DNA from: Massilia mucilaginosa
GTDB lineage: Bacteria; Pseudomonadota; Gammaproteobacteria; Burkholderiales; Burkholderiaceae_D
Length of the DNA: 64,000 nucleotides
Assembly (NCBI RefSeq): GCF_011682145.1
Contig: NZ_WHJH01000015.1
Location: 62,001-126,000 of the forward strand
Direction: 5' to 3'
The notes beneath the pieces were generated by a model. It was given only the letters and a program-made list of their open reading frames with translations, was not told where the DNA came from and did not search any database. This document shows positions 25,461 through 37,291 of this stretch, in pieces (positions within the stretch are counted from its first letter, which is position 1; every line of letters begins with the position of its first letter). The position numbers and the translations under genes are program-made.

Positions 25461-25572
25461 CGCATCCTCAAAAATGAACTGTTCCCGTAGCAATAGCATA
25501 CGTGATGATGTTGCTTTAGGAAATGTTTCTACCCGAAGCCCGCCGTGCGCATCCGTGGCGTCGTCGCGGCGT

Positions 25573-26782
25573 TCATGGTTGCCGCTCCAGCGCGGACCAG
25601 ATCGGCTCGAATTGCTGCATCCGGCGTGCAAAACGATCCTCGTCCGCGCCACCCATGTCGCTGTTCATCAAGAACAGCTTTCCGGTCCCCGTCACCGGGT
25701 CGAACGCCATGAAGGTGCTCACGCCCGGATCGCTGCCCGAATGGCCGATCTGCCCGTTGGCCGAATGGCGCCAGAACAGGCCGCCGTTCGGTTCGCTTTT
25801 CGGACTGTCGGCCGGAATCGCATCGTCCGCGAACTGCTTGTCGAACAGCAGCCTGAACGATGCCTTGCCCAGCAAGGCGGACTCGCCCCGATAGCCCTTG
25901 ATCATTTCCACCAGGTAGATCGCCAGGTCGTCGGCCGAACTGATCAAGCCGCCGTCCGGATAGGTAATGAGCGAATACAGCGGATACGCCCGCTTCTCGA
26001 TGTCGTACAGGCGCGCATGGCGCCGCCAGCGCGTCGTCGATGGCCCAGCTGGTATGGCGCATGCCCAGCGGCTGGAAAATATGCGTCCGGCAAAACGCAT
26101 CGAAACGCTGCCCGCTCCTGAGTTCGATCAGATAGGCCGCCAGCGCCGCCCCGATGTTGGAATACGCGTAGCTGCTGCCGCTCGGCGCCTTGCCGAAGTT
26201 GCTCGCCTTGAAGGTGCGCCCCTCGGCCGCCAGGTAATTCTTCAGAAAACCATCGAGCGAGGTGTCGCTGCGCCCGGGCACGGTGAACTCGCGCACGAAG
26301 CGCTTGAGCAAGGGGCTGCGCCGGTCCGAATAGGCATTCAGGTAGTACGAGTGCCCGTACACCTCATCGTCATCGACAATGCCCGAGGTATGCGTCACCA
26401 GATGGCGGATGGTGATCGGCCCCGCGCCCGGATGCGGATTATCCACGCGAAACGGGAGCACCGCATTGATCTCGGTATCGAGCGTGAAATAGCCAAGCTC
26501 GACCGCCTTGGCCAGCGCCACCCCCACCACCGTCTTGCTGACCGAGCCCACGTTTTGCACGGTATCGGTCCGATAAGGCCGCTTTGCCTTGATATCGGCA
26601 TAGCCGAAACCGTGCCGGTATGCGACCCCATCCTTGGTCACGCTCGCCACCGCAAACCCGGTAAAGCCCGCGCGCCGATGCAGCGCCTCCAGCTCGCCGG
26701 TGAGGGCCTGGTGGTCCGGCTGCGCCTGCGCGCCGGTGCAGCAGGCCAGCAGCATGGCCAGGAGTAATCGTCTCATCGACAT
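25573..26782 (-). pseudogene. Exported serine beta-lactamase-like hydrolase (class C/esterase family), broken by a frameshift
   Basis: The start codon gives a signal peptide (to about residue 20). SVSKT (SxxK nucleophile motif) and YAYSNIG (YxN motif) are in the first frame. After AIDDALA near 26020 the sequence continues only in a second frame as RHARLYDIEKRAYP and carries the third motif GHSGSDPG to the stop at 25573. Joined, the two parts give a full-length family protein of about 400 residues, so one base is missing or extra in the CTGGCGGCGCC run. These hydrolases act in the periplasm on peptides, esters or beta-lactams. It may be a real pseudogene or an assembly error; the neighbouring gene also shows one break. 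Confidence 0.75.
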
Positions 26783-26804: not shown

Positions 26805-26869
26805 TTTTTACATTTCCTTTACGACAACGTGCCAACTCTTTAGAAATTTTTTATGGCTGCGCCGATACG
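26805..26869 (+). promoter_or_regulatory. Porin promoter with KdpE-like element
   Basis: CAACTCTTTA (26833-26842) and GCCGATACG (26861-26869) are separated by 18 nt. Exactly the same two blocks with the same spacing occur in front of kdp (27672-27708). Upstream, TTTTTACA (26805-26812) and TTTACG (26818-26823) add further T-rich repeats. Confidence 0.6.
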
Positions 26870-26914
26870 ATTTGCCGTGTCTCCGTTTTCCACCACAGCC
26901 AAGAAAGAAGCACC

Positions 26915-27637
26915 ATGAAGATCGCCATTGTCGCAGCCGCCCTGTTGTCGTTCTCCGCCCACGGCGCGACCGAGTTCAGTACCAACGCCGCCCTCACCAG
27001 CGACTACCGCTATCGCGGCATCTCGCAAACCCGCCTCCAGCCGGCCGTGCAGGGCGGCGCCGACCTGGTGCACAAGCCATCCGGCTGGTACGCCGGCGTG
27101 TGGGCCTCGGCCATCAAGTGGACCGGCGACGCCGGCGGCGACGGCAAGGTCGAACTCGACGTCTACGCCGGCCAGCGCGGCGCGCTGGCGGGCGGCATCG
27201 GCTACGACGCCGGCGTGCTGACCTACGCCTACCCATCCAACCGGCTCGGCCACGTGGCGGGCTTCGCCAACGCCAACACCACCGAGGTCTATGGCCAGCT
27301 GTCGTACGGCGTGGCCTTGCTCAAGTATTCGCACGCGCTGACCAATCTGTTCGGCTACGTCGACAGCAAACACAGCGGCTATCTCGACCTGGCCGCCAAT
27401 CCGGATCTGGGCAACGGCTTCGTGCTCAACCTGCACGCCGGGCGCCAGCGCGTGGCGGGCAACGGCGCCGCCAGCTACACCGACGTCAAGATCGGCGTGA
27501 CGCGCGACGTCGGCGGGGCGAGCGTGGCGCTGGCCGCCATCGGCACCAATGCCGGCAAGGCCGCCTACGCCTCGCCCGCCAACGGCAAGTTCCTCGGCAA
27601 GACGGCCTTGCAACTGACCGTCAGCAAGACGTTCTAA
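26915..27637 (+). CDS. TorF-family putative porin
   Basis: The 240-residue precursor has a signal peptide ending near AHGAT (residue 18). The mature part begins EFSTNAALTSDYRYRGISQT, the hallmark of the TorF/Gcw_chp outer-membrane barrel family. Alternating hydrophobic strands end in an aromatic C-terminal strand (VSKTF), as expected for BAM recognition. Family members are predicted small porins of mostly unknown substrate. It lies just upstream of kdp and shares a spaced promoter element with it, so it may be co-induced at low potassium and aid cation entry. That link is an inference from the promoters. Confidence 0.88.
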   Translation: MKIAIVAAALLSFSAHGATEFSTNAALTSDYRYRGISQTRLQPAVQGGADLVHKPSGWYAGVWASAIKWTGDAGGDGKVELDVYAGQRGALAGGIGYDAGVLTYAYPSNRLGHVAGFANANTTEVYGQLSYGVALLKYSHALTNLFGYVDSKHSGYLDLAANPDLGNGFVLNLHAGRQRVAGNGAASYTDVKIGVTRDVGGASVALAAIGTNAGKAAYASPANGKFLGKTALQLTVSKTF

Positions 27638-27656
27638 GGGCGGCGTTTACGCTTTG

Positions 27657-27708
27657 TTTACACCGGCGCGGCAACTCTTTACACCGTTTTTAGACGCTTG
27701 CCGATACG
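27657..27708 (+). promoter_or_regulatory. kdp promoter with KdpE-like repeats
   Basis: TTTACACCG occurs twice (27657-27665 and 27678-27686), 21 bp apart or two helical turns, and a T-run TTTTTA follows. This resembles the T-rich KdpE target of the Escherichia coli kdp promoter. Within it CAACTCTTTA (27672-27681) and GCCGATACG (27700-27708) repeat the porin promoter blocks at identical 18-nt spacing. Confidence 0.65.
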
Positions 27709-27744
27709 CTCATCAATAACAAAACCAATTCGTTCGAGGGTGAT

Positions 27745-27837
27745 ATGGACCTGATTTTCATCGGAGCGCTCCTGCTCTTTTTCGGCCTGGCCTGCGCTTT
27801 CGCAGCCGGCTGCGCCACCCTGGGGGACAAGACATAA
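27745..27837 (+). CDS. 30-residue membrane protein preceding kdpF
   Basis: The small ORF has a GAGGG ribosome site and encodes one hydrophobic segment with two cysteines ([19 protein letters not shown]) and a short charged end. Its TAA overlaps the kdpF ATG by one base (TAATG), indicating coupled translation in the kdp operon. Short membrane ORFs at this position are recalled from other kdp loci of beta- and gammaproteobacteria, but no function is known to me. It may assist assembly or stability of the KdpFABC complex. Confidence 0.65.
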
Positions 27838-27923
27838 TGGAACCCGTCTACATCGCCGGCCTGGTGGCCGCCGGCCTGCTGGCCTACCTGGTCCATGCGC
27901 TGCTCAACGCGGAGGACCTGTGA
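27837..27923 (+). CDS. kdpF: KdpF subunit of the potassium-transporting ATPase
   Basis: The 28-residue peptide is one membrane helix ([20 protein letters not shown]) ending AEDL, a pattern typical of KdpF, which stabilises the KdpABC complex. It is coupled on both sides: its start overlaps the preceding small ORF and its TGA shares a base with the kdpA ATG. Confidence 0.88.
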
Positions 27924-29704
27924 TGACCATGCAATCGATGGCGCTGCTGGGCGCCTTCCTGGTCGTGCTGCTGGCGCTGGCCTGGCCGCTTGGGCGTCTG
28001 CTGGCAAAGGTCGGCGAGGGCGGCGCCGTGCCCGGCCTGGGCTGGCTGGCACCCGTGGAGCGGCTGCTGTACCGCCTGGGCGGCGTGCTCCCGGAAACGG
28101 GAATGGGCTGGAAATCGTATGCCGTCGCGCTGCTGGTGTTTAACGGTCTCGGTGCGCTGTTCGTGTACGGCGTGCAGCGCCTGCAAGCGTACTTGCCGCT
28201 CAACCCGCAGGCGCTGGCCAATGTCAGCCCGGATTCCTCGTTCAACACCGCCGTCAGCTTCGTGGCCAACACCAACTGGCAAGGCTACGGCGGCGAGCAG
28301 ACCATGAGCTACCTCACGCAGATGGTCGCGCTGACCGGCCAGAACTTCTTTTCGGCCGCCACCGGCATCGCCGTCGCCTTTGCGCTGATCCGCGGCTTCA
28401 GTTCGCGTTCGGCCGCGTCGATCGGTAACTTCTGGGCCGACATCACCCGCTCGACCCTGTACGTGCTGCTGCCGCTGTCGCTGGTGTTCGCGGTGTTCCT
28501 GATGGGGCAGGGCGTGGTCCAGAACTTCGACAGCTACCAGGAGGTGCAGCTGATCGATCCGGTCGCGTATTCGGTCGCCACGCCAGGCGCCGATGGCCAG
28601 GCCGTGACCGAAGCCAAAGTCGCCACCACCCAGACCATCGCCATGGGGCCGGTCGCCTCGCAGGAAGCGATCAAGCTGATTGGCACCAATGGCGGCGGCT
28701 TCTTCAACGCCAACTCGGCCCACCCGTACGAAAACCCGAGCGCGCTGTCGAACTTTGCGCAGATGCTGGCGATCTTCCTCATTCCCGCCGCGCTGTGCTT
28801 CGCTTTCGGACGCATGGTCGGCGACCTGCGCCAGGGCTGGGCGGTGCTGGGGGCCATGAGCCTGATCTTCGTGCTCGCTACCAGCGTGGTGATGAACGCC
28901 GAACAAGCCGTGCATCCGCAACTGGCGGCGCTGGGCGTGGACCAGGGCGCGAGTACCTTGCAAGCCGGCGGCAATATGGAAGGCAAGGAAGCGCGCTTCG
29001 GCATCGCCGCCTCGTCCCTGTTCGCCGCCGTGACCACGGCCGCCTCGTGCGGCGCGGTCAACGCCATGCACGACTCGTTCACGCCCATCGGCGGCATGGT
29101 GCCGATGCTGCTCATGCAACTGGGCGAAGTGGTGTTCGGCGGGGTCGGTTCGGGCCTGTACGGGATGCTGGTGTTCGCCATCATGGCGGTCTTCATCGCC
29201 GGCCTGATGATCGGCCGCACGCCGGAATACCTGGGCAAGAAGATCCAGGCCTTTGAGATGAAAATGACCTCGATCGCCATTCTGGTCACCCCGCTGCTGG
29301 TCTTGAGCGGAACCGCGCTGGCGGTGATGCTGGACGTGGGCCGTGCGGGCGTCGCCAACCCGGGCGCGCATGGCTTCTCGGAGATTCTGTACGCCTTCAG
29401 TTCCGCCGCCAACAACAACGGCAGCGCCTTTGCGGGCTTGTCGGCCAATACGCCGTTCTACAACACCATGCTGGCCATCGCCATGTGGTTCGGACGCTTT
29501 GGCGTGATCGTGCCGGTGCTGGCGATTGCCGGCGCGCTGGCCGCCAAGCCGCGCCTGAAAGAGAACGCCGGCACCATGCCCACGCACGGCCCCATCTTCA
29601 TCGGCCTGCTGGTCGGGGTGGTGATGCTGGTCGGCGTGCTCAATTACGTCCCGGCGCTGGCGCTCGGTCCCGTCGTCGAGCATTTGCAGCTCTACACCAA
29701 ATAA
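27923..29704 (+). CDS. kdpA: KdpA, potassium-binding channel-like subunit
   Basis: The protein has 593 residues from the ATG at 27923; a GTG at 27920 overlaps the kdpF stop. It is a polytopic inner-membrane protein of the potassium-transporter superfamily, with four pore-like repeats. Signatures include [49 protein letters not shown] and [13 protein letters not shown], all typical KdpA selectivity-filter surroundings. Together with KdpB it makes the high-affinity ATP-driven potassium uptake system. The length matches the family. Confidence 0.96.
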
Positions 29705-29720
29705 ACCCACATCGGAGCCC

Positions 29721-31823
29721 ATGATGTCGCAAGCAATCCCGCTGCCACCGGCAGCGACCACCCGCAAGACGCTCACCTTGTTCGACTCGGCGCTGATTGG
29801 CCCGGCCATCCTCGACGCCGTCATGAAGCTGGGACCGCGCACGCAACTGCGCAGCCCCGTCATGTTCGTCGTCTACGTCGGCAGCATCCTCACCACCTTG
29901 ATGTACTTCCAGGCCGTCGCCGGCAAGGGCGATGCCGACAGCGGCTTCATCCTGGCGATCGCCGTCTGGCTATGGTTCACCGTGCTGTTCGCGAACTTCG
30001 CCGAAGCGCTGGCCGAAGGGCGCAGCAAGGCGCAGGCCGCGTCCCTGCGCGGTCTCAAGCAGACCGTCAGCGCCAAGCAACTGGCCACGCCCAAATACGG
30101 CACCACCTGGCTGCCGGTCCCCGGCGCCGATCTGCGCAAGGGCAATACCATCCTGGTCGAAGCGGGCGACGTCATTCCCATCGACGGCGAAGTGATCGAA
30201 GGCGTGGCTTCGGTCGACGAAAGCGCCATCACGGGCGAATCGGCGCCGGTGATCCGCGAATCGGGCGGCGATTTTTCGGCCGTTACCGGCGGTACCCGCG
30301 TGCTGTCGGACTGGCTGGTGGTGCGCGTGTCGGTCAATCCCGGCGAGACCTTTTTGGACCGCATGATCTCCATGGTCGAAGGCGCCAAGCGCCAGAAAAC
30401 ACCCAACGAGATCGCGCTCACCATCCTGCTGGTGGCGCTGACCATCGTGTTTTTGGTCGTCACCGTGACCCTGCTGCCGTTTTCGCTGTTCGGCGTGGCG
30501 GCGGCCGGGGCGGGCAAACCGGTCAGCGTCACGGTGCTGATCGCGCTGCTGGTGTGCCTGATCCCGACCACCATCGGCGCGCTGCTGTCTTCCATCGGGG
30601 TGGCCGGCATGAGCCGCATGATGGGTGCGAACGTCATCGCCACCTCGGGCCGCGCGGTGGAAGCGGCCGGCGACGTCGACGTGCTGCTGCTGGACAAAAC
30701 CGGCACCATCACGCTCGGCAACCGCCAGGCCGCCGGCTTCTTCCCGGCGCCGGGCGTCGCCGAGCAGGAACTGGCCGACGTGGCGCAACTGGCCTCCCTG
30801 GCCGACGAAACCCCGGAAGGGCGTTCCATCGTGGTGCTGGCCAAGCAGCGCTTCAACATCCGCGAGCGCGACATGGCCAGCCTGCAGGCCAGCTTCATCC
30901 CGTTCAGCGCCAACACGCGCATGAGCGGGGTCGATATCGGCGCGCGCCAGGTGCGCAAGGGCGCGGCCGATTCGGTGAAAAAGCATGTGGAGGCGCTCGG
31001 CCTGCCGTATCCGCCCGAGATGGCGCGCACCGTCGACGATGTGTCGCGCCGCGGCAGCACGCCGCTGGTGGTGGTCGACGACGGCCGCGTGATGGGCGTG
31101 GTTGAGTTGAAGGATATCGTCAAGGGCGGCATCCGCGAGCGCTTTGCGGAACTGCGCCGCATGGGCATCAAGACCGTCATGATCACCGGCGACAACAAGC
31201 TGACCGCCGCCGCGATCGCCGCCGAAGCGGGGGTGGACGACTTCCTGGCCGAGGCCACGCCCGAAGACAAGCTCAAACTGATTCGCAGCTACCAGGCCGA
31301 GGGCCGGCTGGTGGCGATGACCGGCGACGGCACCAACGACGCGCCGGCGCTGGCCCAGGCCGATGTGGCGGTGGCCATGAACTCGGGCACCCAGGCCGCC
31401 AAGGAAGCGGGCAACATGGTCGACCTGGATTCGAATCCGACCAAGCTGCTGGAGATTGTCGAAATCGGCAAGCAGATGCTGATGACGCGCGGCTCGCTCA
31501 CCACGTTCTCCATCGCGAACGACATCGCCAAGTATTTCGCGATCATTCCGGCGGCCTTTGTGGGCACCTATCCGCAGCTCAAAAGCCTGGACGTGATGCG
31601 CTTGACCAGCCCCGATTCGGCCATCATGTCGGCGGTGATCTTCAATGCCCTGATTATCGTGGTGCTCATTCCGCTGGCGCTCAAGGGCGTGCGTTACCGG
31701 GCCATTGGCGCGGCGGCCCTGCTGCGCCGGAACATCCTCATTTACGGTGTGGGCGGCATTGTGCTGCCGTTCATCGGCATCAAGCTGATCGACATGCTGC
31801 TGTCGGCGCTTCACCTGGTCTAG
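29721..31823 (+). CDS. kdpB: KdpB, catalytic P-type ATPase subunit
   Basis: This 700-residue inner-membrane protein carries D325 in DKTGT as the phosphorylation site, TGESAPV in the actuator domain and [20 protein letters not shown] in the hinge, matching class IA P-type ATPases. It hydrolyses ATP to drive potassium through KdpA. A second ATG directly follows the first, and GGAG precedes them. It begins 16 nt after kdpA. Confidence 0.96.
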
Positions 31824-31836
31824 AAAGGACACCTTC

Positions 31837-32415
31837 ATGCAAACCACTTTTCGCCCCGCCATCATGCTGTTCGGCGCACTGACCCTGGCCGTGGGCGTAC
31901 TCTATCCGCTGGCGGTGACCGGGATCGGGTACGTCGCCTTTCCGGACCAGGTGCGCGGCAGCCTGGTGACGAGTGAGGGCAAGACGGTCGGTTCACGCCT
32001 GATCGGGCAGTCGTTTTCATCGCCCGGGTATTTTTGGGGCCGGCCGTCGGCGACCGGGCCGATGGCCAACAATGCCGCTGGCAGTTCGGGCTCGAACCAG
32101 GGGCCGCTCAATCCGGCGCTGGTGGAGGCGGTCAAGGGCAGGGTGGCCGCGCTGCGGGCGCTAGACCCGGGCAACACGGCCCTGGTGCCGGTGGACCTGG
32201 TAACGGCATCGGCCAGCGGACTCGATCCTGAGATCAGCCTGGCGGCGGCGCAGTATCAGGCGGGCCGGGTGGCGAGCGCGCGCAAGATACCGCGCGAGCG
32301 GGTCGAGTCGATCATCAAGGAGAAGGCGATCGTGCCGATGCTGGGCGTATTCGGCGAGGCGCGCGTCAATGTGCTGGCGCTGAACCTGGCGCTCGATGCG
32401 GCGTATACTCGGTAA
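31837..32415 (+). CDS. kdpC: KdpC subunit
   Basis: This 192-residue protein has one N-terminal membrane helix and a periplasmic domain with the family signatures GSRLIGQSF, YFWGRPSAT and SGLDPEISLAAA, ending RVNVLALNLALD. KdpC is an essential accessory subunit that helps ATP binding by KdpB. It begins 13 nt after kdpB and precedes kdpD by 20 nt. A good ribosome site (AGAAAGGA) is present. Confidence 0.95.
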   Translation: MQTTFRPAIMLFGALTLAVGVLYPLAVTGIGYVAFPDQVRGSLVTSEGKTVGSRLIGQSFSSPGYFWGRPSATGPMANNAAGSSGSNQGPLNPALVEAVKGRVAALRALDPGNTALVPVDLVTASASGLDPEISLAAAQYQAGRVASARKIPRERVESIIKEKAIVPMLGVFGEARVNVLALNLALDAAYTR

Positions 32416-32435: not shown

Positions 32436-35138
32436 ATGTCCCCAACTGATCCCCAACGCCCCGACCCCGACGTCCTGCTGGCCCAGGTCCGGACCGAGGA
32501 ACGCAAGGCGGCGCGCGGCAAGCTGCGCATCTACTTCGGCGCCTCGGCCGGCGTCGGCAAAACCTGCGCCATGCTGGCCGCCGCCCGCAAGCTGCGCGCC
32601 GATGGCCTCGAGGTGCTGGTCGGCGTGCTCGAAACCCACGGCCGCGCCGACACAGCCGCCCTGCTCGACGGCCTTCCCCGCCTCGCACAGAGCACCTTGT
32701 CCCATCGCGGCAAGACGCTGCACGAGTTCGACCTCGATGCCGCCCTGGCCGCCGCCCCGGCGCTGATCCTGGTCGACGAACTGGCCCACTCCAACGCCCC
32801 CGGCTCGCGCCACCCCAAGCGCTGGCAGGATGTGGAGGAGCTGCTGGCGGCCGGCATCGACGTGTTCAGCACCGTCAACGTGCAGCACCTGGACAGCCTG
32901 AACGACGTGGTCGGCGGCATCACCGGGGTGCGCGTGGCCGAAACCGTGCCCGACACCGTGTTCGACAACGCCGACGAAGTGGTGCTGGTCGACCTGCCGG
33001 CCGACGAACTGCTGGCGCGCCTGCGCAGCGGCAAGGTGTATCAGCCGGAACAGGCCGAACGCGCCTCGAAAAACTTCTTCCGCAAAGGGAACCTGATCGC
33101 CCTGCGCGAGCTGGCCCTGCGCCGCACCGCCGACCGCGTCGAGGACGACGTGCGCGCCTACCGCATCGAAAAGTCCATCGACACGGTCTGGAAGACCGGC
33201 GGCGCGCTGCTGGCCTGCGTGGGGCCGCGCGCGGACGCCGAGCATGTGGTGCGCAGCACCGCGCGCCTGGCCGGCCAGCTGGGCGCCGACTGGCACGCCG
33301 TGTACGTCGAAACGCCGGCCCTGCAGCGCAAGCCGCCGGCGCAGCGCGAACTGATCCTGAAAACGCTGCGCCTGGCGCAGGAACTGGGCGCCGGCACGGC
33401 GGTGCTGGCGGGGCGCGACGTCGCCGCCACCATCGTCGACTATGCGCGCGAGCACAATGTGTCGAAGCTGGTGCTGGCGCGCGCGCAGCCGTCCTGGCCG
33501 TGGCGCCGTTCGCACCACGCCCGCATCGCCGGCGCCGCGCCGGACATCGACCTGATCGAAGTCGGCGCCGGCAAGCCGCGCCCGGCCGCCACGGCGCCGG
33601 AAACCAACACCGTCACCCTCGCCCTCGACAGCGGCAAACGGCGCGCCGCGGCCTACGCCTGGTCGGGCGCGGCCAGCCTGGCCGCCGCGCTGCTGCTCTC
33701 GCCCCTGGTCGGCTACGTCGACCTGGCCAACATCGCCATGCTGTTCCTGCTGGTGGTGCTGCTGGTGGCGGTGCGCTTCGGACGCGGACCGTCGGTGCTG
33801 TGCACCTGCCTGTGCGTCGCCTTCTTCGACTTTTTCTTCGTCACGCCGCGCTTCACGTTCAACGTCTCGGACCTGGAATACCTGATCACCTTCGGCGTGA
33901 TGCTGGCGGTGGGCCTGATCACCGGCCACCTGACGGCCGGCCTGCGCTTCCAGGCGCGCGTGGCGGCGCACCGCGAGCGCCGTTCGCGCGCGCTGTACGA
34001 ATTCGCGCGCGAGCTCTCCGGCGCGCTCCAGACCGAACAGATCGTCGACACCACCAAGGACGCCATCGCCCGCACCTTCCGCGCGTCCGCCACCCTGCTG
34101 GTGCCCGATGCCGATGGACGCCTGCAAGCTCCGCCAGGCGCCAGCGCCGACCTGGGCGTGGCCCAGTGGGCCTTCGACCATGCGCAGAGCGCGGGCCTGG
34201 GCACCGGCACCTTGCCGGCCAGCCCCCTGTTCTACCTGCCGCTGGTGGCCCCCATGCGCACGCGCGGGGTGCTGGCCATCGCCCCCGAGCGGCAGCGCTC
34301 GATACTCATACCCGAGCAGCGCCAGCAGCTCGACACCTTCGCCGCGCTGGCCGCCATCGCGCTCGAACGGGTGCACTACATCGAGGTGGCGCAGGACGCG
34401 CTGGTGAACATGGAATCGGAGCGCCTGCGCAATTCGCTGCTGGCGGCGCTCTCGCACGACCTGCGCACGCCATTGACCCTGCTGGTCGGACTGTCGGAAG
34501 CGCTGGCCTCGTCCACCCCCGCGCTGGCCGCGCCGCAGCGCGAGATGGCCGCCATCCTGCACGAGGAAGCGCTGCGCATGAGCGCCCTGGTGGCCAACCT
34601 GCTGGAGATGGCGCGCATCCAGAGCGGCCAGATCACCTTCAACATGCAGTGGCAGCCGCTCGAAGAAGTGGTCGGCAGCGCCTTGCGCGCCTGCGCCGCG
34701 CCGCTGCGCGCGCACAGCGTGCGCACCGAACTGGCGCCCGGCCTGCCGCTGGTGCGCTTCGACGCGGTGCTGATCGAACGGGTCTTGTACAACCTGCTGG
34801 AGAACGCGGCCAAGTACACGCCGCCCGGTTCGGCCATCGTGATCGGCGGCGCGCGCCATGGCGCCTGGCTGCAAATGAGCGTCTGCGATGACGGTCCGGG
34901 CTTCCCGCCAGGCCGCGCCGAGACCCTGTTCGAGAAGTTCGCGCGCGGCGAGCGCGAGTCGGCCAAACCGGGCGTCGGCCTGGGCCTGGCGATCTGCCGC
35001 GCGATCATCGAGGCACATGGCGGTAAAATCGAGGCTGGCGCGTCGCCCACCGGCGGCGCGGCCCTTGTAATGACATTGCCGCTCGGGACCCCACCGCCCG
35101 GCCCCGAACCAGAAAGCCCCGACTTGCCCGATGACTGA
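32436..35138 (+). CDS. kdpD: KdpD sensor histidine kinase
   Basis: The 900-residue protein has the KdpD N-terminal domain with Walker A GASAGVGKT (35-43) and the DELAHSNAPGSRHPKRWQ stretch. A universal-stress-like domain (about 250-370), four membrane helices (about 405-510), a GAF-like domain and a kinase core with H674 in LSHDLRTP complete it. The ATP-binding boxes are NLLENAAKYTP and GVGLGLAI. KdpD senses potassium limitation and phosphorylates KdpE. It overlaps kdpE by 8 nt. Its inclusion directly behind kdpC makes the whole locus one operon. Confidence 0.95.
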   Translation: MSPTDPQRPDPDVLLAQVRTEERKAARGKLRIYFGASAGVGKTCAMLAAARKLRADGLEVLVGVLETHGRADTAALLDGLPRLAQSTLSHRGKTLHEFDLDAALAAAPALILVDELAHSNAPGSRHPKRWQDVEELLAAGIDVFSTVNVQHLDSLNDVVGGITGVRVAETVPDTVFDNADEVVLVDLPADELLARLRSGKVYQPEQAERASKNFFRKGNLIALRELALRRTADRVEDDVRAYRIEKSIDTVWKTGGALLACVGPRADAEHVVRSTARLAGQLGADWHAVYVETPALQRKPPAQRELILKTLRLAQELGAGTAVLAGRDVAATIVDYAREHNVSKLVLARAQPSWPWRRSHHARIAGAAPDIDLIEVGAGKPRPAATAPETNTVTLALDSGKRRAAAYAWSGAASLAAALLLSPLVGYVDLANIAMLFLLVVLLVAVRFGRGPSVLCTCLCVAFFDFFFVTPRFTFNVSDLEYLITFGVMLAVGLITGHLTAGLRFQARVAAHRERRSRALYEFARELSGALQTEQIVDTTKDAIARTFRASATLLVPDADGRLQAPPGASADLGVAQWAFDHAQSAGLGTGTLPASPLFYLPLVAPMRTRGVLAIAPERQRSILIPEQRQQLDTFAALAAIALERVHYIEVAQDALVNMESERLRNSLLAALSHDLRTPLTLLVGLSEALASSTPALAAPQREMAAILHEEALRMSALVANLLEMARIQSGQITFNMQWQPLEEVVGSALRACAAPLRAHSVRTELAPGLPLVRFDAVLIERVLYNLLENAAKYTPPGSAIVIGGARHGAWLQMSVCDDGPGFPPGRAETLFEKFARGERESAKPGVGLGLAICRAIIEAHGGKIEAGASPTGGAALVMTLPLGTPPPGPEPESPDLPDD

Positions 35139-35829
35139 TCCCGCCCCCACCGCCCTGCTGGTCGAAGACGAGCCGCAGATTCGCCGCTTTGTGCGCGCCG
35201 CGCTCGAAGACGAGGGCTGGGTGGTGTTCGAGGCGGCCACCATGCAGCGCGGCCTGATCGACGCCGGCACCCGCACGCCCGACCTGGTGGTGCTCGACCT
35301 CGGCCTGCCCGACGGCGACGGCATCGCCTTCATCGCCGACCTGCGCACCTGGTCGTCGGTGCCGGTGATCGTGCTGTCGGCGCGGGTGGGCGAGGCCGAC
35401 AAGATCCGCGCGCTCGACGCCGGCGCCGACGACTACCTGACCAAGCCGTTCGGCGTGGGCGAGCTGCAGGCGCGCGTGCGCGCCACCTTGCGCCGCCAGC
35501 GCAAGAGCGGCGCCGCTCCCGCCGCGCTGGTGCGCTTCGGCGACGTCAGCGTGGACTTGCAGGCGCGCCGCATCACCCGCGCCGGCCAGCACGTGCACCT
35601 GACCCCGACCGAGTTCCGCCTGCTGTCGGTGATCGTCGCCAATGCGGGGCGGGTGGTCACCAATCCGCAGCTGCTGCGCGAGGTGTGGGGGCCGTCGCAC
35701 GCCGAAGATGGCCACTACCTGCGCATCTACATGGGCCACCTGCGCCACAAGCTCGAAGACGATCCGGCGCAGCCGCGCTACCTGCTGACCGAAACCGGCG
35801 TCGGCTACCGCCTGCTGGCGCAGGACTGA
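35131..35829 (+). CDS. kdpE: KdpE response regulator
   Basis: The 232-residue OmpR/PhoB-type regulator has the acidic pair E12/D13, phosphoacceptor D56 in VVLDLGLP, the TKPFG lysine and a C-terminal winged helix (LTPTEFRLLSVIV ... GVGYRLL). It activates kdp transcription and should bind the T-rich repeats at 27657-27708, probably also the similar element before the porin gene. It is co-translated with kdpD and is followed after one base by the degenerate AAA+ regulator. Confidence 0.95.
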   Translation: MTDPAPTALLVEDEPQIRRFVRAALEDEGWVVFEAATMQRGLIDAGTRTPDLVVLDLGLPDGDGIAFIADLRTWSSVPVIVLSARVGEADKIRALDAGADDYLTKPFGVGELQARVRATLRRQRKSGAAPAALVRFGDVSVDLQARRITRAGQHVHLTPTEFRLLSVIVANAGRVVTNPQLLREVWGPSHAEDGHYLRIYMGHLRHKLEDDPAQPRYLLTETGVGYRLLAQD

Positions 35830-35830
35830 C

Positions 35831-37291
35831 ATGCACGCGCCCTTTTCCCTGCTCGACGCCGAAAACACCCTGGCCTCGCCGGTGCCCGTGCCGGCCGGAC
35901 GCGCCGCCCAGATGCTGGCGCTGACCATCCTCTGGCATCCCGAGCCGGCGCGCATCGGCCAGCAGTTCATCGCCCCCACGCGCGCGGCCGACATTGCCGT
36001 GAACCGCTTGGCGCCCCTGTTCGGCGCCCTGGCGGGCGACGGCGCGCCGCTCGCTCACCGCCGCATCGCGCGCGATTCGCTGCGCCTGCGCCGCCATCGC
36101 GACGATGGCGTGAGCCTGCTGCTGCCGCAAAGCCGCATGCGGGTGGAACTGAACGGCGCCATGCTGGCCGCGCCCGAGACGCGCTGCACGCCCGAACAGG
36201 TCGATTGCGGCCTGGTGATCGGCCTCGGTGGCGTGGTGCTGCTGTGCGTGCACTGGATGGACCGGCTGCCGCAGCCGAGCGCCATCGGGTCGCTGGTCGG
36301 GGTCGGCAGCGCCGCGATCCGCGTGCGCGAGCTGATCCGCCAGGTGGCCGCGACCGACCTGCCGGTGCTGCTGCTCGGTGAAGCCGGCAGCGGCAAGGAG
36401 CTGGCGGCGCAGGCGATCCACCAGGCCAGCGCGCGCTGCCGCAGCCCGATGCACACCGTGAACATGGCGACCGTCGGCGAGTCGCTGGCCGAGACCGACC
36501 TGTTCGGGGCCGGCACGGGCGCCTTCGCCAGGGCCGGCGACGGCATCGTGTTTCTCGACAAAATAGGCTGTGCGCCGCCGGTGGTGCAGGCGATGCTGCG
36601 GCGCGTGCTGCAAACGGGCGAGTACCGCCCGTCCGGCGCGCGCATGAAGGAAGCGGCGAAGGCGCGCCTGATCGCCGCCAGCGACCATGACCTGCACGAC
36701 GGCAGTTTCAACCAGGCCTTGCTGCGCCGCCTGGAAGCGCTGGTGGTGCACCTGCCGCCGCTGCGCGCGCGGCGCTGCGATATCGGCGTGCTGGCGCTGC
36801 ATTTCATGCAGGCCTGGAGCGCGCGCACCGGCAAAACCCCCGAGCTGCCGCTCGCGTTCATGAGCCAGTTGTGCAATCACGACTGGCCCGGCAATGTGCG
36901 CCAGCTCGGCAGCGTGGTGCAGCGTGCCATGAGCGCCGTCCAGGCCGGCCAGCCGCTCGATGTCGACGCGCTGGTGCCGGGTGTGGCGAACCGGCCGGCG
37001 CGCACCCGGCCCAACAGGCTGGCTCCGCAGGCGGTGCTCGACGCGCTGGAGGCCAACGGTTGGCTGATCCGCAACGCGGCGCTGGCGCTGGGCGTGTCGC
37101 GCCCGTCGATGTACAAGCTGATGGAAGCGCATCCGGCGATCCGCGAGATCGGCCAGATTGCGCCGGCCGAGATCGAGGCGGCGCTGGCAAGCCACGGCGG
37201 CGACGCCGGGCGCTGCGCCGCCGCCCTGAAGACCCCGAGCGAAGCGCTGCGGCGCTACTTGCGCGGGCGCGCCGCCGCCAACGTGTTGTGA
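35831..37291 (+). CDS. Degenerate sigma-54-activator-like AAA+ protein with FHA-like N-terminus and two Fis-type HTH motifs
   Basis: This 486-residue protein starts one base after the kdpE stop. Residues about 25-145 look FHA-like. The AAA+ core keeps Walker A (GEAGSGKE, 183-190) but the Walker B acidic Glu is Lys244 (VFLDKIG). The GAFTGA loop region is shortened to LFGAGTGAFARAGDG, so contact with sigma-54 and normal ATP hydrolysis seem lost. WPGNVRQL remains. Two Fis-like helix-turn-helix units follow (about 395-430 and 440-480). It is best read as a DNA-binding protein that no longer activates sigma-54. A link with potassium control is suggested only by position at the end of the kdp operon. 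Confidence 0.8.
   Translation: MHAPFSLLDAENTLASPVPVPAGRAAQMLALTILWHPEPARIGQQFIAPTRAADIAVNRLAPLFGALAGDGAPLAHRRIARDSLRLRRHRDDGVSLLLPQSRMRVELNGAMLAAPETRCTPEQVDCGLVIGLGGVVLLCVHWMDRLPQPSAIGSLVGVGSAAIRVRELIRQVAATDLPVLLLGEAGSGKELAAQAIHQASARCRSPMHTVNMATVGESLAETDLFGAGTGAFARAGDGIVFLDKIGCAPPVVQAMLRRVLQTGEYRPSGARMKEAAKARLIAASDHDLHDGSFNQALLRRLEALVVHLPPLRARRCDIGVLALHFMQAWSARTGKTPELPLAFMSQLCNHDWPGNVRQLGSVVQRAMSAVQAGQPLDVDALVPGVANRPARTRPNRLAPQAVLDALEANGWLIRNAALALGVSRPSMYKLMEAHPAIREIGQIAPAEIEAALASHGGDAGRCAAALKTPSEALRRYLRGRAAANVL

Follow-up and report, generated by a model that had tools for sequence, protein, structure and literature searches.

Does the regulator of the Kdp potassium pump also govern a porin of the outer membrane? 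The question is raised by a stretch of the Massilia mucilaginosa genome, 64,000 nucleotides long and referred to here as the window (contig NZ_WHJH01000015.1, positions 62,001 to 126,000), in which torF (26915–27637, + strand), encoding a TorF-family (Gcw_chp) putative outer-membrane porin of 240 amino acids, precedes the kdp genes, including those for the sensor kinase KdpD and the response regulator KdpE. In Escherichia coli, KdpD phosphorylates KdpE when potassium is scarce. A first-pass annotation of the window had noticed an element common to the porin and kdp promoters and proposed a KdpE regulon that includes the porin, and sequence comparison bears this out, with a KdpE-type promoter accompanying 27 of the 31 torF copies that lie upstream of kdp in other genomes. 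We conclude that KdpE control of torF is strongly supported by comparison and that, judging by the sequences compared, torF is very probably a KdpE target.

Promoter architecture

The pair CAACTCTTTA-N18-GCCGATACG noticed earlier is present in two window copies, at 26833–26869 (porin) and 27672–27708 (kdp), and its mean count in 100 dinucleotide-preserving shuffles was 0.00 with spacings of 16–20 allowed. The 21-bp repeat of TTTACACCG described for the kdp copy is likewise there, at positions 27657 and 27678. Both copies are part of a common 65-bp architecture, extending over 26807–26871 at the porin gene and 27646–27710 at kdp, in which a pair of TTTAC half-sites (11 bp apart), then a further TTTA pair and finally a −10 follow one another at fixed spacing. 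The TTTAC-N6-TTTAC direct repeat, unmentioned in the first-pass annotation, precedes both 37-bp copies at equal distance. In the whole genome (7,702,761 bases), TTTAC-N6-TTTAC-N10-CAACTCTTTA matches only twice, at the torF and kdp promoters, and its reversed form does not match at all.

At the porin promoter the predicted KdpE box occupies 26807–26823 (+ strand; TTTACA at 26807–26812 and TTTACG at 26818–26823, with TTTCC between them). The second half-site pair (26839–26855, + strand; TTTAGA and TTTATG) overlaps the presumed −35 region and is followed by a putative −10, TACGAT (26866–26871, + strand), placed by alignment with 30 promoters and with TACCCT of E. coli; transcription would start near 26878. 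The kdp promoter, on the same strand, has its predicted box at 27646–27662 (TTTACG at 27646–27651, spacer CTTTG, TTTACA at 27657–27662), and promoter alignment places its second pair (TTTACA and TTTAGA) at 27678–27694 and a probable −10, TACGCT, at 27705–27710. The 37-mer, taken earlier for the KdpE-type element, thus contains the second pair together with the larger part of the −10, and the canonical KdpE box is absent from it. We reject the idea that the footprint of KdpE is the 37-mer, the canonical box being the upstream repeat, 10–26 bp before the first base of the 37-mer.

In E. coli, according to excerpts from one study, the KdpE site consists of TTTATA and TTTACA with 5 bp between them, paired changes in the TTTA of either half-site abolish binding, and the KdpE footprint covers −72 to −50 of the kdp promoter (PMC3264566). 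Two 6-bp direct repeats beginning with TTTA and separated by 5 bp are found at 26807–26823 and at 27646–27662, and the lengths of box, spacer, and second pair to −10 (16, 12 and 37 bp) are identical in the window porin promoter, the window kdp promoter and that of E. coli. The E. coli promoter used here had a 100% match in an E. coli collection, where the 80 matching bases stop 23 bp short of kdpF. The second pair of the porin promoter lines up with TTTGCG/TTTGCA in the E. coli kdp promoter. Among 30 matrix-picked promoters, seven of the eight TTTA columns of this pair are invariant and the eighth is at least 90% conserved, so that the second pair equals or exceeds the first in invariance. The four half-sites start at 0, 11, 32 and 43 and thus lie roughly on one helix face, which makes a second KdpE dimer likely. 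KdpE is indeed encoded in the locus, as had been stated (35131–35829, + strand; NF007820 356.3 bits, cut-off 325). In an alignment to 4kny, with numbering shifted by two, it keeps the residues that match E. coli R193, R200 and T215, reported in the same excerpts as important for DNA binding (PMC3264566).

A chance match, or a recent and functionless local duplication of the kdp promoter, could also place two similar elements here, and the two promoters do share a strand and lie only 839 bp from each other. Their identity is 95% over the half-sites and −10, 51% over the rest of the element and 29–32% outside it, and this concentration is the pattern of selection and not of a fresh copy. The controls gave no chance matches, and the site recurs in the 27 upstream copies (the other four are cut by contig ends). 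On the shuffles, the genome-wide pattern, the relatives and the identity profile we reject chance and simple duplication, which we find barely credible.

Promoter models and genome-wide searches

The best 80 kdpA loci of other genomes, mostly of Oxalobacteraceae, were gathered and are the basis of all counts out of 80. A flexible-spacing pattern matched the kdp promoter in 56 of them, every match having the lengths 16, 12 and 37, and a weight matrix was built from 55 kdp promoters and no porin promoter, excluding those of the window and of L005, its nearest relative. On the window, this kdp-only matrix gave 81.0 bits at the kdp promoter and 45.8 bits at the porin promoter; the next row, at −18.7 bits, overlaps the porin site, and the best score elsewhere was −28.3 bits. 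A two-part matrix that allows small spacing changes (threshold 12 bits) exceeded 5 bits at none of 3,048,810 positions of reversed sequence. Model R1, made from 30 promoters of other species with the relatives' porin promoters included, recovered the kdp site (E 6.8e-15) and the porin site (E 1.7e-9) in the Massilia genome and, among the 150 of 690 first-look candidates that were scored, no third site below E 2, the closest being one partial match at E 2.46.

These searches bear on whether another OmpR-family regulator, or a mere sigma-70 consensus, might account for the likeness of the two promoters, KdpE having no part at torF. Direct repeats are bound by OmpR-family regulators, as excerpts from PMC3264566 have it, and the KdpE site at torF is a predicted one. 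Against this, a matrix from kdp promoters alone finds the porin site, whose half-sites are those of E. coli KdpE, set in the same register as there; R1 gave no further genomic site under E 2; and torF genes lie together with kdpDE in the genome. An explanation that leaves KdpE out is therefore very improbable.

Linkage and conservation in relatives

torF is present in 62 of the 80 kdp loci, lying upstream of kdp in 31, right after kdpE in 25 and between kdpC and kdpD in four; of the remaining two copies, one follows kdpC at a contig end (L074) and the other is on the opposite strand, 2.8 kb beyond kdpE (L019). Conservation of the element at torF genes next to kdp had been named beforehand as a check on the proposal, and the upstream copies provide it: 16 of the 27 sites stand directly before torF (the one in L031 passing barely, at 12.6 bits), and the other 11 head a short run of genes whose last member is torF. 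For the four copies without a site (L015, L024, L035 and L053), the contig breaks off within 600 bp. A KdpE-type site, with a spacer 1 bp longer, is also present at the L019 copy. A site precedes kdp itself in 73 of the 80 loci, 55 of which are the training set of the matrix. In L031, L071, L073 and L080 the sole detected site precedes torF and none precedes kdp; L050, L052 and L081 have no detectable kdp site either. Across 16 non-redundant torF promoters, conservation is 95% at the half-sites, 84% at the −10, 61% in the rest of the element and 43% in the flanks, figures that lean towards the half-sites because the sites were chosen by matrix. A family sample of 97 genomes contains 45 with a KdpE-type site, and in 25 of these 45 (the Massilia genome included) torF lies no more than 12 kb from the site, against about 0.9 expected.

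Two loci are worth recording separately. Locus L065 (Cellvibrio mixtus J3-8), which is gammaproteobacterial, has a kdpABCDE-torF arrangement with DHDPS and small-protein genes like that of Oxalobacteraceae, and was perhaps laterally moved. The torF near a KdpE-type site at G022:C18:188810–189568 contains one in-frame TAG, due to decay or sequencing error.

Paralogues linked to glnK-amtB

The Massilia genome has four torF genes, and the paralogue closest to the window copy (L001, 66% identical) is directly followed by glnK and amtB. No KdpE site was found within 1.4 kb of any of 41 amt-linked torF copies, 27 of which have TGGCAC-N5-TTGC (at most one mismatch, within 420 bp), a motif seen in 8 of 820 shuffled controls. 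Conversely, of the 68 kdp-linked copies for which 400 bp or more of upstream sequence exist, 31 have a KdpE site and none a sigma-54-like site; six unassigned copies include one with each. Members of this porin family thus tend to have a promoter of the kind that goes with their partner transporter, and the amt-linked paralogue is apparently under sigma-54 control, to go by these motifs.

A single origin of the kdp-linked porins was considered and is not supported. On a tree of 85 TorF rows (32 of 117 were removed for being long-branched, distant or nearly identical to others, and a first tree of all 117 was made in a quick version only), the kdp label needs six changes, of which well-supported branches force four. 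One origin appeared in 0% of 200 bootstrap trees, a bootstrap that had not settled.

The TorF protein and its role

TorF matches TIGR02001 (169.6 bits, cut-off 47.15) and PF09694 (181.9 bits, cut-off 24) over its full length, and a C-terminal F is invariant in 37 TorF rows. Its AlphaFold model is a beta-barrel (pLDDT, the predicted local distance difference test, 93.9) with KdgM and NanC as nearest folds. The model has 13 strand elements, two of which count as one strand, giving a 12-strand barrel, and TorF is accordingly modelled as what is probably a small 12-stranded porin. A Pfam scan of TorF up to E 0.01 returned Gcw_chp only, with no KdgM/NanC profile match. The inward strand residues of the model are mostly acidic.

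From the predicted sites and this barrel we infer a joint scheme of KdpE binding, induction and cation conduction, in which KdpE would induce the small porin torF and the porin would serve potassium uptake by Kdp. Taken as a whole we regard the scheme as probable, and that TorF carries potassium as reasonably likely. At low potassium, KdpD would phosphorylate KdpE, which would bind the TTTAC repeats ahead of torF and of kdpFABC, a second dimer probably occupying the tandem pair that overlaps the −35, and would activate a sigma-70-type promoter with a weak −10. Induction of torF by low potassium is very likely. The Kdp pump of the inner membrane would be made together with a small porin in the outer membrane, whose barrel wall, probably acidic inside, would favour monovalent cations and raise the influx of potassium into the periplasm. 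The ammonium ion is nearly the same size as potassium, and the glnK-amtB-linked paralogue would do likewise for ammonium.

Several observations weigh against this scheme. None of the 25 torF copies right after kdpE has a KdpE site of its own, and their co-regulation needs read-through across gaps of about 75–340 bp (18 of the 25 measured). torF was not found in 18 of the 80 loci within the available stretch, many being cut by contig ends; six of the loci without it (L021, L036, L051, L052, L082 and L084) have full 10-kb flanks, so that Kdp can occur without a neighbouring torF. In seven of the 80 loci kdp itself lacks a detectable site, and 20 of the 45 genomes with a site have no torF within 12 kb, four of them no torF match at all, several of the 20 being fragmented assemblies. 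As for the protein, which residues point inward was guessed from their alternation, and two of the strands are not clearly amphipathic. Outside the strands, lysine and arginine outnumber aspartate and glutamate 11 to 4, and the net charge of the mature protein is +4. The acidic wall is also found in the amt-linked copy (4 vs 10) and is therefore no marker of kdp-linked copies. A transcriptome study of Collimonas PMB3(1) reports induction of kdpFABC (log2FC 2.2–3), and its excerpts make no mention of TorF (PMC12542777); three other Collimonas loci (L070, L072 and L077) have torF between kdpC and kdpD.

Some of these points, with others, favour a different role, in which torF is a KdpE target and no potassium channel, serving a different side of the osmotic or low-potassium response, for instance the remodelling of the envelope, or letting some other solute or a metal through. 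Among solved structures the closest folds, those of KdgM and NanC, belong to sugar porins, a further count against a potassium channel, and the loops of the window TorF are rich in lysine and arginine. In relatives, moreover, KdpE-type sites stand ahead of operons, often next to kdp, that encode a small protein, a DHDPS-family enzyme and in some cases a ParA-like ATPase, as well as ahead of a short open reading frame (ORF) of 59–73 amino acids, and these non-transport genes mean that the regulon is not one of transport alone. Excerpts on Rhizobium etli describe a 1,017-bp porin-like gene, RopAe, near kdpA-kdpE on plasmid p42e and tie it to copper transit and tolerance, though it is another porin (PMC6011978); this slightly lowers the joint scheme and slightly raises a non-potassium role. 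On the other side stand the acidic majority among the inward residues and a porin lineage otherwise mostly tied to glnK-amtB, whose substrate resembles potassium. We consider a non-potassium role unlikely, if well worth keeping in mind, and prefer the joint scheme of KdpE induction and potassium entry.

The additional operons differ in placement. The small-protein/DHDPS operon with a KdpE-type promoter stands beside kdp in L008, L054 and others, with no obvious potassium link, lies 1.8 Mb from kdp on the same contig in L105, and is on a different contig from kdp in the draft assemblies L121, L126 and L131; its small protein has no Pfam match. The 59–73-residue ORF, with a hydrophobic C-terminal segment, follows a KdpE-type site in three genomes of one genus (L124 +1216, L125 +1864 and L127 −4050).

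General porins are commonly assumed to let potassium cross the outer membrane freely. That many kdp loci of Oxalobacteraceae place a porin under predicted KdpE control, and that a sister porin is coupled to the ammonium channel, implies that the passage of small cations through this barrier can hold scavenging back and is under regulation; the data suggest that high-affinity potassium uptake has its own outer-membrane gate in this soil bacterium and many relatives. More broadly and tentatively, TorF proteins could be outer-membrane channels for small monovalent cations that were repeatedly recruited, to KdpE and Kdp for potassium and to sigma-54 and GlnK-AmtB for ammonium. KdpE of Oxalobacteraceae would then run a true regulon of kdp, torF and, in some species, the small protein, the DHDPS-family enzyme and ParA-like ATPases, and scavenging would include a regulated step at the outer membrane, namely its permeability to potassium and ammonium. 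A testable role would also be gained for Gcw_chp, listed in Pfam as a family of unknown function. KdpE and the TorF family are each known; among the literature matches listed, with subscription papers and preprints outside the scope, neither their pairing nor a KdpE-controlled porin was found described.

Genes around the two promoters

Between the kdp promoter and kdpF lies a conserved ORF for a small hydrophobic peptide of 30 amino acids (27745–27837, + strand), which matches neither NCBIfam nor Pfam; a loose count by start motif puts similar peptides (MDxVFIGA...GCDKLG) at this position in 66 of the 80 loci. The kdp genes follow on the + strand: kdpF (27837–27923, 28 amino acids; TIGR02115 29.0 bits, cut-off 26.85; PF09604 34.7 bits, cut-off 21.2), kdpA (27920–29704; TIGR00680 757.7 bits, cut-off 387.7), kdpB (29721–31823; TIGR01497 1083.3 bits, cut-off 527.9), kdpC (31837–32415; NF001454 247.6 bits, cut-off 178) and kdpD (32436–35138), which matches NF007793 near full length at 1110.5 bits, just below the cut-off of 1123. 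Upstream of torF, a minus-strand gene at 25529–26782, which we take to be serine-hydrolase-like, seems to continue in another frame (ORF 25573–26100), as if interrupted. A sigma-54-activator-type protein (35831–37291), whose NCBIfam matches are all below cut-off, begins one base past the end of kdpE and has a match among the 80 loci in L005 only. A sigma-54 regulator beside Kdp is mentioned in excerpts on Acidihalobacter aeolianus (PMC9062700).

Comparison with known systems

The window protein resembles the TIGR02001/PF09694 TorF family in scoring above both curated cut-offs, and differs from it in its surroundings: of 22 close relatives outside the Massilia genome, in a sample of 398 genomes of the phylum, 17 lie beside glnK-amtB, two beside kdp and three beside neither. 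The Shewanella namesake is listed, in excerpts, as a porin of the trimethylamine N-oxide (TMAO) reductase system (PMC5955497). The 12-strand porins KdgM and NanC are only 7–12% identical to TorF over aligned residues. They carry acidic oligosaccharides, whereas the barrel wall of TorF is predicted to be acidic. RopAe of R. etli, likened by description only, is similar in encoding an outer-membrane protein near a kdp cluster, and differs in its copper role, in being described as another porin and in that the excerpts name no KdpE control (PMC6011978).

With the KdpDE-kdpFABC system of E. coli, the window shares TTTA half-sites 5 bp apart, their distance to the −10 and the DNA-contact residues of KdpE. 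The second half-site pair begins with TTTG there and with TTTA here. In E. coli, kdpFABC is called the sole KdpE target in excerpts from PMC7657598, whereas here torF, and in relatives further operons, bear the site.
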